Assembly: GCA_947630955.1 (NCBI GenBank)
Contig: CANRJK010000004.1
Span: 1 to 33,968 of the forward strand
Length of the DNA stretch: 33,968 nucleotides
Origin: an uncultured Bacilli bacterium
GTDB taxonomy: Bacteria > Bacillota_I > Bacilli_A > RF39 > UBA660
Direction: 5' to 3'
In this document: positions 16,941 through 23,877 of the stretch, piece by piece
Position numbering within the stretch: position 1 is the stretch's first letter
How the letters are laid out: each line of letters starts with the position of its first letter
The notes under the pieces: generated by a model
Told to the model about the DNA's origin: nothing
The model's input: only the letters and a program-made list of their open reading frames with translations
Databases searched by the model: none
Program-made: the position numbers and the translations under genes

Positions 16941-17891
16941 TTAGTCATTTTCATAACTTAACAAGCGTAAATAGCGTTCATATTTTTCGCTAATATCAAT
17001 TAAATAATCTTTTTTTCTAACATTTTCATACCAATCTTTAGGAATTTTATTTGTACCATAATATATACCAGCTATAGCACCAGCTAGGGCTCCGATAGCT
17101 GAAGTATCACCACCAATATTAGTTGTAGCGATGATACAATCTTTATAGTTATCTGATTTAATAAAACACCATAAAACGCATTCTAAAGTATCAACAACAA
17201 AACTGGATGATTTTATTTCATCAATATCTAACTCATATATATTACCTACTAAAATACGAGAGAAAAATTTTAATGTATTATTACTAAACATTGAATAGTC
17301 AATTGTTTTTATTTTTTTTATAGCTGCATATTTATTATTACCATTGAGTAAAAATAATAGATAATGAACATATATATAACATGCACAGATAGATATTTCA
17401 TGGCGATGAGTAATTGAACACAATTTTTTTATTGCATCATAAGTTTTTTCTTTGCTTTCTTTATTAGCATGAAAATAATAGATTAATGGTAACATCATTT
17501 TTAAAGAACTATTTCCGTTATCGTTAATTGAACTTTCACCACAATCATAAGCTTTATGTTCACGTTGCGTAAAGCGTATTAAAGATTTTAAAGTTGTTTT
17601 ACCTATACCAAAAGATTCATTTACAGCACAAAACTTATTACTTGTAAACCAACTAACACAATTTTCAGCTATATAATCATAATTTAATCCTTTTTTTGTA
17701 ATAGCGCTAGTTACAGCTAACATAAGTGATGTACTATCACCCCATGTTCCCTTTGGTAACCCTTTTTTTATACATGGACCCATTTTTAATACTGGATGTT
17801 CCAACAAGTAATTACGATCTTGATTTTTAGTAATAGTTCCTAAAGCATCAGCAATAGCGCAACCAATTATTCCTTCTTTTACTCTATACAT
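16941..17891 (-). CDS. ADP-ribosylglycohydrolase (DraG/ARH) family protein, probable degenerate metal site
   Basis: GIIGCAIADALG, KGTWGDSTSLMLAV, TTNIGGDTSAIGALAGAIAGIYYGTNKIPKDW align with DraG/ARH motifs. Confidence 0.88.
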   Translation of the reverse strand: MYRVKEGIIGCAIADALGTITKNQDRNYLLEHPVLKMGPCIKKGLPKGTWGDSTSLMLAVTSAITKKGLNYDYIAENCVSWFTSNKFCAVNESFGIGKTTLKSLIRFTQREHKAYDCGESSINDNGNSSLKMMLPLIYYFHANKESKEKTYDAIKKLCSITHRHEISICACYIYVHYLLFLLNGNNKYAAIKKIKTIDYSMFSNNTLKFFSRILVGNIYELDIDEIKSSSFVVDTLECVLWCFIKSDNYKDCIIATTNIGGDTSAIGALAGAIAGIYYGTNKIPKDWYENVRKKDYLIDISEKYERYLRLLSYEND

Positions 17892-19446: not shown

Positions 19447-19475
19447 AAAAAGGATGAATTAATCATCCTTTTTTT
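19447..19475 (-). terminator. Terminator overlapping the spoIVB stop codon
   Basis: AAAAAGGATGA-attaa-TCATCCTTTTT on the + strand; transcribed on -. Confidence 0.75.
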
Positions 19476-20409
19476 CGGCTTCTTCTAACATATTAGTAAT
19501 GAGAATTCCATATCCTCTTTTTGGATCATCTACCACTACATGTGTTACAGCTCCAACAATATATTCATTTTGAATTATTGGTGAGCCACTCATACCTTGA
19601 ACTATTCCACCTACTTCTAATAATTTGGGATCAACAACTCTAAACATTATATTTTTAATAGTATCGTCAGCATCAACTTTCAAAATCTCAATTTCATATT
19701 TTTCTACTTTATTATCTTCCAACTCAGTTAACATATATGCAGTACCTAATTTTATGTCTTTTTTTGTTCCTACTTTATACAATTTAGTCGTATCTATATC
19801 TTCAATATAATCTCCAAATAGTCCTTTATCAGTATTACTATCAATATCACCCATGATTTCATTATTATCAATCGAAGCATTTTTTTCACCAGGACTACCA
19901 TCGTCACTACGTTTTATATCTACTATCTTAGACTCATATATATTACCACCATTACTATCGATAATATTTCCATTAGCAGAATTAATTATTTCATGTCCTA
20001 AAGCTCCAAAAATATTAGAGTTTGGATCAATAAAAGTTAATGTACCAATACCAGCTATGGTATCTTTTAAGTATAATCCAGTTTTACCATTTGTTATTTT
20101 TAAATCACCATTTTTTAATTTACCATTTCTAATGTAACCTATATTAACAGTATCACTACTATTATTAGAAATAGCTTCGGTGAAACTTTCAATATCGATA
20201 TTATTTTGATTATTAACTGAGACAATAATATCCCCTTTTTGAATAAACTGATTAGAATTATCGTAATTACCCATAACAATAATACCATCGCTTTTTAATT
20301 TAATCCCAATATTCGCACCACTCGCTACTATATAATCAGAATAGGCATAAGTATAAATTGGTATAGTTAAAAGAAGCATTAAAAATAAAGGTTTAAAATG
20401 CTTAAACAT
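19459..20409 (-). CDS. spoIVB: SpoIVB-like S55 serine peptidase with PDZ domain
   Basis: Signal anchor, PDZ-like region (FIQKGDIIVSVNNQ), GALGHEIIN, VQGMSGSPIIQNEYIVGAVTHVVVDDPKRGYGI. Confidence 0.92.
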   Translation of the reverse strand: MFKHFKPLFLMLLLTIPIYTYAYSDYIVASGANIGIKLKSDGIIVMGNYDNSNQFIQKGDIIVSVNNQNNIDIESFTEAISNNSSDTVNIGYIRNGKLKNGDLKITNGKTGLYLKDTIAGIGTLTFIDPNSNIFGALGHEIINSANGNIIDSNGGNIYESKIVDIKRSDDGSPGEKNASIDNNEIMGDIDSNTDKGLFGDYIEDIDTTKLYKVGTKKDIKLGTAYMLTELEDNKVEKYEIEILKVDADDTIKNIMFRVVDPKLLEVGGIVQGMSGSPIIQNEYIVGAVTHVVVDDPKRGYGILITNMLEEAEKKDD

Positions 20410-20500: not shown

Positions 20501-21961
20501 TTATTTTTTTACATTTTTAACTAATTTAGCCTGAACAACAATACGATTTCCTTTATAATCTTTACAAGTTGATAAAGTTAAAAATTTATCTTTAGTTGTA
20601 ACTTTAGTATTAAAGTTATAAATACTTCTTGATAACATTTTATTTATCCATTTTGAGAATGAAGCTTCGTTTTCAAAATTATGAGTTAAATAATAAGCCT
20701 CAGCTGGAACAACATAAATGGAAAAAATTTTCCATAAAGTATTATTTGTTGGGGTTGCCAATTTTATAATATGATTATCAGCATTTTTATACCAAGATGG
20801 TGATAGCGTTTTTTCTAGACTTCCAAACATAACTTGATCAGTACGGCCATGACCATAAATAACCGTGTTGCGTTTGAAATTTTTAAAGTCTGAACGATAA
20901 TCACCATAAATCCAGCCAGCAACATTAGATTTACGATTGAAAGAGTGATTTAGATAAAAACTATTATCGCTACTTTGAACAACAGGATAATTAACATTTG
21001 TGTTGTTAACATATATCCAAGCTACTGTATCCTTATTAGTAGCTTTTAATTTAGTAAAATTAACATTAACCATTGGAACATTTATGTAATTCCAATAATC
21101 ATCGCCATATTTATTTTTCTTCGTTACTTTTGGGGCGGTTTTATCATCAGCTACCGTATATTTTTCTTCTGGTTCTGATGGTGTTGGTTGCTCAGTTTCA
21201 GTTTCTTCTGGTTCTACTAGTGCTTCTTCAATAATATTATCTATTTCATTCTGTGTTTCTTCACCAGTTTTCTTCCACTCTTTTAACATTCCAAGACAAC
21301 TAACAAACCCAATAACACAAACAACAATAATAACCATATAAATATTTAAAATACGATTATTAAATAAAAAGTCGATTGGAGATTTACGATGAGCTTCATT
21401 TGATTTTTTTATACTTTCATAAACGATATCTTTGTTACTTTTATTATCTAACCAGTTTTGTGAAAGAAAAACATCATTAGCTTTTTCTTCATTTGATCGA
21501 AGTAAATCATTCAAAGTTGTTTTACGATACTTACCATTTAGTTTTTTTATGGTATTAGTTACTTCAAACATTGCTTTTTTATCAAAGATAAAACGAGCAT
21601 TACTATCAGTCATTTGTTTAATATAAGGATCATTGATAATTTTTTCGAATTGATAAATTATTTCTAAAATTTCATCTGAATCTGTAATATTACCTGTTCT
21701 AATTTTATAATTAACAGTATTTACAAAAGTATCCAAAATAACTTTGGTATTAAAAGTAGAAGCATTTTGATATTTAGGAAAAAGATGAACTAATTTTTCT
21801 AGCGAAACATATGTTACACGATCATGAACAATATTTTGCTTTAAATAAATTATCTTTTTACTATCAACAGCTACAAAGAAAGAAAAAACATTATCAGTAA
21901 ATTGAATACTTTTTATCATTACACATTCTTCTTTTTGATAAATAATTGCCTTCTTCATCAT
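20501..21961 (-). CDS. Class B sortase with a long N-terminal cytosolic extension
   Basis: VAWIYVNNTNVNYPVVQSSDNSFYLNHSFN, VIYGHGRTDQVMFGSL, FLTLSTCKDYKGNRIVVQAKLV; single TM at about aa 205-225. Confidence 0.9.
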   Translation of the reverse strand: MMKKAIIYQKEECVMIKSIQFTDNVFSFFVAVDSKKIIYLKQNIVHDRVTYVSLEKLVHLFPKYQNASTFNTKVILDTFVNTVNYKIRTGNITDSDEILEIIYQFEKIINDPYIKQMTDSNARFIFDKKAMFEVTNTIKKLNGKYRKTTLNDLLRSNEEKANDVFLSQNWLDNKSNKDIVYESIKKSNEAHRKSPIDFLFNNRILNIYMVIIVVCVIGFVSCLGMLKEWKKTGEETQNEIDNIIEEALVEPEETETEQPTPSEPEEKYTVADDKTAPKVTKKNKYGDDYWNYINVPMVNVNFTKLKATNKDTVAWIYVNNTNVNYPVVQSSDNSFYLNHSFNRKSNVAGWIYGDYRSDFKNFKRNTVIYGHGRTDQVMFGSLEKTLSPSWYKNADNHIIKLATPTNNTLWKIFSIYVVPAEAYYLTHNFENEASFSKWINKMLSRSIYNFNTKVTTKDKFLTLSTCKDYKGNRIVVQAKLVKNVKK

Positions 21962-22005
21962 GATCCTCCTTATTTAATAATTGTACCATAAAAAGGGAAT
22001 AAAAA

Positions 22006-22024
22006 AAAGAGCAAAAGCTCTTTC
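22006..22024 (-). terminator. Terminator at the end of the adhesin gene
   Basis: AAAGAGC-tttt-GCTCTTT plus T-run on the - strand. Confidence 0.8.
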
Positions 22025-23823
22025 TAAGCATGTTGTTTATTTAATTTAAAGATACTGAATCCAGCTAAAGCTACTGTTCCAATTAAGCCAGCAACAATAA
22101 GCGTTAAATTCATATCAGCTGTAACTGGAATTGGTGAATTGTACATAACAACCGTTTTTTCAACGCCACCATCAGCTTTTACTTCAAATTCGATAACTTC
22201 ATCACTAATACCATAACCAGCAGGTGATTTTGTTTCAATTAAAACATATTTACCTTCTTTTAAATCACTTAAATAGTGAGGTGAAGTTGTAGAAATCCAC
22301 TCATCAATAACTTTTCCAGTTGCATCTTTAACAACTAATTTAGCACCTGGTAATTCTTTTTTAGTAGTAACATCTTGTTTACTTATCTTAATTAAAGTAT
22401 TATCAGGAATTGGTGTATTATACATAACAACTGGTTTTTCAATACCACCATCTTTTTCAACGGTAAATGTAACTGTTTCAGTTGATAATAAATAACCTTC
22501 TGGAGCAATAGTCTCACTTAATGTATATTTACCTGGTGTTAATGTTTGAATGTAGTGAGGTGAAGTTGTAGAATCCCATTCATCTACTACTTTACCAAGT
22601 GCATCTTTTAAAACTAAGTGAGCACCAGCTAATTCAGCTTTTGTAGTAATATCTTGTTTGCTTATCTTTACTTTGGTTGGATTTTTTGAGTTAACTACTT
22701 TAACATCAATAGTTTGACCTGCTTTTGTTGTTACATTAATATTTGAAGATTTAATATATCCAGCAGGAGCAGATTCCTCAATAACAGTATAAGTACCTAA
22801 TGCTAAATTATTAATAACATAAGGGTTATTTGAATCAGTAGTTGTCCAAGTTGCAACTACATTACCAGCTGAGTTTTTAACTGTTAATTTAACACCAGCT
22901 AATTTAACTTCCGTACCTGTTGAATTATCTACTTTTGTTATTCTTAAAGAACCTTTTGGAACAACGTTTGTAGAAGTTTCAGCTGATACTGGAACTGATG
23001 AATTATACATCAAAGCAACATTTTGAACACTAGCACTACCAGCTGTATAACGATATATTTTTTTCATTGTACCAGCTGATGATACTTTGACTTTCATTGT
23101 AACACTAGAAGTTACTTTACTTACAGGAACAGAAACATAAAATTTCTTACCTAAATTAAGTTTAACACCACTATCTTTTTGTGAACCATCAACAACAATC
23201 TTTGTTCCTGCTGGGGCATTTACTAAAGAAACAGTAGCACTACTATAACCTTGTCCTCCTAATGTCATTGTATTACTTACATAAGATTTTCCATCACTAG
23301 ATAATTTCATAGAACCACCACTAGTAACTGAAATCTTTGGTGTAGAAATATTATAAGTTCTTGCTTTATTATATAACTTAATTGCACCACTACCAAGATG
23401 TCCATTAGCGTTTAGACTACTTGTTTTTAATGTTCCTTGAGCTAACCAAATAGCTAACTGTGTAACATAATATTTTTCATCATCAGAATAACCACTACCA
23501 ATGACACTTGTATTCCATACGCCACCATATCCATTATTTAATATGTAAATTAAACTTGGAGTAGTAACTTCTCCATCTAATTTTAATTTTGATTTTTCAG
23601 CTGGTGCACTTAAAACTTTGTTAAGGCAATAAGCTATTCTTGTTCCTGCTGATGTATCAACGTATTTAAATGATGTACCTGCTCCAATGTACTTATCGAC
23701 ACCATTTAAAACTCTTTTATGGAAAGTAACAGTTTGATCAACGGCCGAAACATTACTTATGCTTACAATGGCTAAGAAAGTTATCAAAAATAAACTAAAT
23801 ATTTTTTTTATCTTTTTCATCAT
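22024..23823 (-). CDS. Cell-wall-anchored thioester-domain adhesin with Cna-B/SpaA repeats
   Basis: Start corrected to ATG 23823 (GGAGGAG RBS; MMKKIKKIFSLFLITFLAIVSISNVSA signal peptide). AYCLN and VTQLAIW thioester-domain signature, three Cna-B-like repeats, C-terminal IPVTAD-hydrophobic-KLNKQHA sorting region. Confidence 0.9.
   Translation of the reverse strand: MMKKIKKIFSLFLITFLAIVSISNVSAVDQTVTFHKRVLNGVDKYIGAGTSFKYVDTSAGTRIAYCLNKVLSAPAEKSKLKLDGEVTTPSLIYILNNGYGGVWNTSVIGSGYSDDEKYYVTQLAIWLAQGTLKTSSLNANGHLGSGAIKLYNKARTYNISTPKISVTSGGSMKLSSDGKSYVSNTMTLGGQGYSSATVSLVNAPAGTKIVVDGSQKDSGVKLNLGKKFYVSVPVSKVTSSVTMKVKVSSAGTMKKIYRYTAGSASVQNVALMYNSSVPVSAETSTNVVPKGSLRITKVDNSTGTEVKLAGVKLTVKNSAGNVVATWTTTDSNNPYVINNLALGTYTVIEESAPAGYIKSSNINVTTKAGQTIDVKVVNSKNPTKVKISKQDITTKAELAGAHLVLKDALGKVVDEWDSTTSPHYIQTLTPGKYTLSETIAPEGYLLSTETVTFTVEKDGGIEKPVVMYNTPIPDNTLIKISKQDVTTKKELPGAKLVVKDATGKVIDEWISTTSPHYLSDLKEGKYVLIETKSPAGYGISDEVIEFEVKADGGVEKTVVMYNSPIPVTADMNLTLIVAGLIGTVALAGFSIFKLNKQHA
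22115..22685 (-). repeat. Tandem Cna-B coding repeats (two closely related ~280 bp units)
   Basis: KISKQD[IV]TTK.EL.GA.LV.KDA.GKV.DEW.STTSPHY..L..GKY.L.ET..P.GY repeated; DNA segments around 22277 and 22556 share 'agtgaggtgaagttgtagaa'. Confidence 0.85.
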
Positions 23824-23848: not shown

Positions 23849-23877
23849 ATAATACCACAAAAATCCTTATTTGTCAA
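23849..23877 (-). promoter_or_regulatory. Sigma-A promoter of the adhesin gene
   Basis: - strand: TTGACA (23877-23872)-N17-TATTAT (23854-23849), upstream of the GGAGGAG RBS. Confidence 0.8.

Follow-up and report, generated by a model that had tools for sequence, protein, structure and literature searches.

A predicted thioester-type adhesin with an IPVTAD sorting signal adjoins a class B sortase in an uncultured Bacilli bacterium

The 33,968-nucleotide stretch of an uncultured Bacilli genome analysed here (the window) encodes on its minus strand, at 22024..23823, a 599-aa protein composed of a signal peptide, a Class II thioester domain, three Cna-B domains and the C-terminal sorting signal IPVTAD, and we consider it very likely that this protein is a monomeric TIE adhesin anchored through IPVTAD by a dedicated class B sortase encoded next to it. 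The adhesin itself is of an already known type; what is new is the pair of sortase and signal, together with an extra domain of the sortase, and IPVTAD is a class B sorting signal specific to the lineage. Domain content, fold prediction, residue conservation, gene adjacency, the sortase tree and the signal pattern are observed, and the pairing of the sortase with its substrate is deduced from adjacency, which does not prove it. The initial annotation of this DNA had described a thioester-type adhesin whose stalk is made of Cna-B domains and whose sorting signal, at PVTAD, departs from LPxTG; HMMs, relatives in the PDB, an AlphaFold model and conservation give this description good support.

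The bounds of the ORF were borne out exactly, and its strand, previously unstated, is minus. The ORF has an ATG start with a GGAGG ribosome-binding site, and its Sec signal peptide (MMKKIKKIFSLFLITFLAIVSISNVSA; 23743..23823, minus) was read from the sequence with a predicted cleavage site. In a consensus scan, the adhesin gene showed a good promoter-like site of its own, TTGACA-17-TATTAT preceded at the second hexamer by TG (23849..23877, minus), with 11 of 12 matches, and consensus matches also point to a terminator-like hairpin between the adhesin and sortase genes (22004..22025, minus) and to a ribosome-binding site of the sortase gene's own. Genes resembling xseB and xseA, assigned by eye from the translations, lie directly upstream of the adhesin in the same direction; the class B sortase gene starts 62 bases downstream and is followed by a SpoIVB-type S55 peptidase gene (19459..20409, minus). 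This 1.08 Mb genome (83 contigs, 88% complete) also encodes Spo0A, indicating that sporulation genes persist, and a sporulation gene beside the sortase is therefore unsurprising. An ADP-ribosylglycohydrolase-family protein is encoded near the locus (16941..17891, minus), and proteins with a similar C-terminus occur near the sortase in several other genomes of the genus. An alignment-based scan of the genome contigs gave 10 named loci, and a scan of the contigs with a single sortase protein as query returned no matches. The named relatives are uncultured metagenomic Bacilli (isolate names 'Lapin' and 'BRZ') and Bacillales bacterium UBA5578.

The head (22999..23742, minus) is matched by Pfam TED (PF08341) over residues 63-153 with 36.1 bits against a cut-off of 22, and a profile of nine orthologous heads matches BaTIE (PDB 6FWV, E 5e-16) and EfmTIE86 (PDB 6FWY, E 2e-12). 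The AlphaFold2 model of the head has a pLDDT of 91.7, and Foldseek with this model placed 6fwy and 6fwv at the top (E about 1e-14, with 1.1e-14 for 6fwy; TM 0.69-0.74 on the query, with 0.74 for 6fwv), Class I domains ranking far below. The sequence and fold features of Class II were all found, namely a Cys in a [YFL]C motif, a distant PhiQ-type Gln and, as an insert separating helix 3 from the strand that bears the Gln, a beta-sandwich. The Cys-Gln pair had been assigned to AYCLN...VTQLAIW, and one half of this assignment was right: Cys66 (AYC; 23626..23628, minus), the predicted thioester Cys, aligns with Cys88 of EfmTIE86, in which Cys88-Gln292 is the bond-forming pair (PMC6194298). The other half has to be moved, as Gln122 of TQLAIW (23458..23460, minus) belongs to the structural, helical TQxxPhiW motif, whose Gln is dispensable for the thioester (PMC4450167, PMC6194298), and the Gln that aligns with Gln292 is Gln267 in VQNVALMYN (23023..23025, minus), separated from TQLAIW by about 145 residues. 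A chain offset of 36 in the EfmTIE86 numbering fits both Cys88 and Gln292. In the orthologue alignment, Gln267 is kept in all Cys-bearing proteins and is Lys in the one without Cys. This protein, from genome G001 (L047:5423-6694), has changed both Cys66 (to Phe) and Gln267 (to Lys) and kept the TQ motif, along with the signal and the sortase, a natural variant that supports Gln267 over the Gln of VTQLAIW as the bond residue. The head reads as a Class II thioester domain with a predicted Cys66-Gln267 bond. In G009 and G002 the proteins at the same locus have no head at all, with signal and sortase kept. Elsewhere, the heads of L230:2494-4071 and L231:5401-6897, with FCT... and (V/N)QNIT, look like divergent thioester domains, both without the TQxxPhiW motif; the L231 protein, the one of the two that was scanned, gave no match to Pfam TED.

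SpaA/Cna-B (PF17802) matches the adhesin in three stretches with 154.9 bits: domain 1 at 22687..22953, domain 2 (ISKQD...ETIAPEGY...MYN) at 22441..22674, which aligns with SpyCatcher/CnaB2, and domain 3 (ISKQD...ETKSPAGY...MYN) at 22150..22392, also defined by the orthologue alignment, all on the minus strand. The isopeptide-position Lys, Glu and Asn are nearly invariant in domains 2 and 3 across orthologues, and each Cna-B domain is probably locked by a Lys-Asn isopeptide bond. A wall-spanning spacer is absent (22114..22155, minus): Asn562 of the last Cna-B domain stands two residues before the sorting motif, and this spacing is identical in the orthologues that have this Asn.

The C-terminus, which was quoted correctly as having no LPxTG, consists of the motif IPVTAD (I565-D570; 22114..22131, minus), defined by alignment and by comparison of neighbour signals, followed by a hydrophobic segment with a short basic tail (22027..22113, minus; from the sequence and a signal scan), in which only two basic residues and a His come after the transmembrane segment. 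PF00746 had no match over its cut-off anywhere in the genome. P566 and T568 are invariant in the alignment of 10 proteins, and Pro and Thr occupy these positions in 14/14 signals compared, with variable flanking residues, so IPVTAD is more than a chance string. The 12 signals of the genus have I (10) or V (2) at P4, Pro at P3 and Thr at P1 throughout, A (10), Q or G at P1' and D (10), G or N at P2'; one sister species has the near-canonical IPNTGD, and two further genera have TPVTAD and TPDTAD, again adjoining the same type of sortase. Asn at P4, as in the canonical class B substrates NPQTN/NPxTG, is absent from all 14 signals beside this sortase clade, which carry I, V or T. Whether PxTA[DE] recurs had been raised as a check on the signal, and the outcome is divided: no such signal was found elsewhere in the genome (about 95% scanned), and in each of the 11 species of the genus that have the locus this gene ends in a PxT(A/G/Q) signal, with PxTAD in two further genera. 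Since such signals recur in orthologues, always beside the same class B sortase, PVTAD is not a lone oddity. Cleavage is predicted between Thr568 and Ala569. A literature word search for names of PxTA-type motifs found nothing relevant. The internal MYNSSVPVSAETSTN (PVSAE), which had been pointed out as a signal-like repeat, reads MFNNSTPLSAETS, MYNEAVSVSASTT, MYNNTSNISTSTN and LFNETTKVKAETS in orthologues; this unconserved string is the end of the last strand of the thioester domain, and we rejected it as a sorting signal.

The neighbouring sortase (486 aa; 20501..21961, minus) scores 158.5 bits with TIGR03064 (cut-off 153.75), has SrtB relatives in the PDB and carries the His371/Cys466/Arg473 triad, which places it in class B. 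Its transmembrane segment was located by hydropathy at 21287..21343 (minus). The odd sorting signal is thereby explained, because class B enzymes are expected to use signals other than LPxTG. The conserved D at P2' also fits the requirement of baSrtB for Asp at P2' for full activity (PMC11987632). Val377 and His427, near the active site, are among the positions that separate the sortase clades in the genus sequences. The residues equivalent to the P4 Asn binders Tyr191 and Ser231 of baSrtB are conserved as Tyr424 and Ser464, which counts against a specialisation at P4.

Three sortases in the genome exceed the Pfam cut-off: the neighbouring SrtB, a short class B paralogue on contig C2 and a small class C/D-like enzyme on contig C16. 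By Pfam, the protein behind a weak SrtB match on contig C18 is no sortase. Only two proteins of the genome contain Cna-B domains of the PF17802 family; the second, also with a thioester domain (L108:786-2511, G000 contig C16), ends in VPDTG and adjoins the small class C/D-like sortase as its own, which we count in favour of dedicated pairing. The other sorting signals in the roughly 95% of the genome scanned are VPDTG, NPETLD and NPETSD. The adhesin and sortase genes are both found in 11 of 12 genus genomes, and G004 (88% complete) has neither; the short paralogue is present in most of them. In the tree, the sortases with this N-terminal domain from the genus, G059 and G085 group in a single clade (13 sequences, 3 genera, support 100/98), and each of the 13 directly adjoins a Cna-B protein ending in (I/V/T)PxT(A/G/Q)(D/N/G). 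The short SrtBs of the same bacterial family mostly lie beside NPxT(S/A/G/L/I/V/F/Y)D proteins. A Fisher test of I/V against N at P4 (p = 3e-9) is descriptive only, as it counts related sequences as independent and uses a hand-picked NPxT list that omits a divergent SrtB clade; the clade tree is the better test.

The sortase has about 200 residues ahead of its transmembrane segment (21347..21961, minus). From the topology this N-terminal domain is expected on the cytosolic side of the membrane, and AlphaFold2 gives five strands and then helices, with a confident prediction for residues 1-140. Searches against Pfam, NCBIfam and PDB folds gave no convincing match. Related domains are found on SrtBs of G017 (two in tandem), G030, G059 and G085, and the G017 enzyme, which falls outside the clade, adjoins NPNTSG; this counts against the explanation favoured here. 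We put forward tentatively, as close to an even chance, that these sortases are a distinct class B subclass defined by a cytosolic N-terminal domain that fits no known family, by (I/V/T)PxTAD specificity against the usual NPxTxD and by a closed system of one enzyme and one adhesin, in which the domain may link anchoring to an intracellular signal. Another SrtB clade (L055, L056, L058, L213-L216) carries a second, apparently unrelated N-terminal extension of about 270 aa before the transmembrane segment, with mostly NPxTG-like neighbour signals.

In the anchoring that we propose, the adhesin would be exported by Sec, and its stalk of three Cna-B domains would carry a tip thioester domain (Cys66-Gln267) able to form a covalent bond with a nucleophile (probably a lysine) of a presumed target. 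The neighbouring class B sortase, which probably anchors the adhesin, would cut the unit of IPVTAD, transmembrane segment and basic tail between Thr568 and Ala569 and join Thr568 to a peptidoglycan precursor. The clade with the N-terminal domain would be specialised on (I/V/T)PxT(A/G/Q)D, and the short SrtB paralogue would probably serve NPxTxD proteins.

The missing spacer before IPVTAD is unusual for a monomeric wall protein and counts against this explanation. In pilins, the last strand runs into the sorting motif without a spacer, and here too the last Cna-B strand enters the motif directly, so the class B sortase could instead polymerise the adhesin or attach it to a pilus, like Streptococcus pyogenes SrtB with its pilin. 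Some class B sortases do build pili (PMC11987632), and in one species two tandem adhesins stand at the locus. A pilus is nevertheless improbable in our view, as the adhesin has no YPK pilin motif, a sortase of its own accompanies the other of the genome's two Cna-B proteins, and in the species whose locus was read no separate backbone pilin could be recognised there; neither a backbone pilin with a pilin-motif Lys nor a pilin cluster was seen, and a pilus would have to use a different linking Lys. It is also unlikely that the short housekeeping class B sortase on contig C2 is the enzyme that recognises IPVTAD and that the neighbouring sortase has another role. That paralogue shares the catalytic fold and is widespread in the genus, but the N-terminal-domain sortase invariably stands next to the signal, both being missing from G004, and the short SrtBs adjoin NPxTxD signals, which differ at P4, held to be the likely determinant of specificity (PMC5118464).

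The sparse charge after the hydrophobic segment, together with the Q at P1' in one relative, could mean that the C-terminus is a plain transmembrane anchor with IPVTAD left uncut. We regard this as very improbable, because Pro and Thr stay fixed in every signal compared while the flanks vary, one sister species has IPNTGD and the sortase always adjoins. A different question, compatible with sortase anchoring of a monomeric adhesin, is whether the thioester reacts with another bacterial cell instead of a host surface. This is a serious possibility, if not the expected one: a Class II thioester-domain adhesin is reported to be required for efficient conjugation in Bacillus subtilis (PMC8092201). 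Nothing counts directly against it, but no mobile-element genes were recognised beside the locus among the genes examined.

The results show that small-genome uncultured Bacilli carry predicted thioester-type adhesins, and that proteins without the head still retain the anchor. Within a single family of bacteria and a single class of sortase, enzymes that adjoin substrates with different P4 and P1' residues offer a natural comparison, and the determinants of class B specificity are therefore testable by loop swaps. The data also suggest that some sortases carry a fused, unfamiliar domain facing the inside of the cell.

The protein has the secretion signal, N-terminal thioester domain, isopeptide stalk and C-terminal anchoring signal of TIE proteins, with IPVTAD instead of LPxTG, and is not an LPxTG protein. 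The closest known counterpart is BaTIE (BasC/BA5258, Bacillus anthracis, PDB 6FWV), in which three Cna-B isopeptide domains likewise follow a Class II thioester domain, and with which the whole ectodomain (residues 55-559) aligns at E 7e-37. BaTIE ends in LPATG after a 38-residue stretch predicted to be unfolded (PMC6194298), whereas in the present adhesin IPVTAD directly follows the last Cna-B domain and a class B sortase adjoins. The thioester domain of EfmTIE86 (PDB 6FWY) shares the Class II fold and the aligned Cys/Gln positions, at about 20% identity to the head. The SrtBs of S. aureus, B. anthracis, C. difficile and L. monocytogenes resemble the neighbouring sortase in catalytic domain, triad and TIGR03064 match and in using non-LPxTG signals with a PxT core, and the acidic P2' of the adhesin signal is as in NPKTGD of class B systems. 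They differ in having N or S/P at P4, against I/V/T with mostly Ala at P1' in the neighbouring substrates here, and the cytosolic N-terminal domain of about 200 residues before the transmembrane segment sets the present sortase apart from them. The class D LPxTA-type systems, whose NCBIfam model is named LPxTATN-specific, also place Ala after the motif Thr, but with a sortase of another class and Leu at P4.
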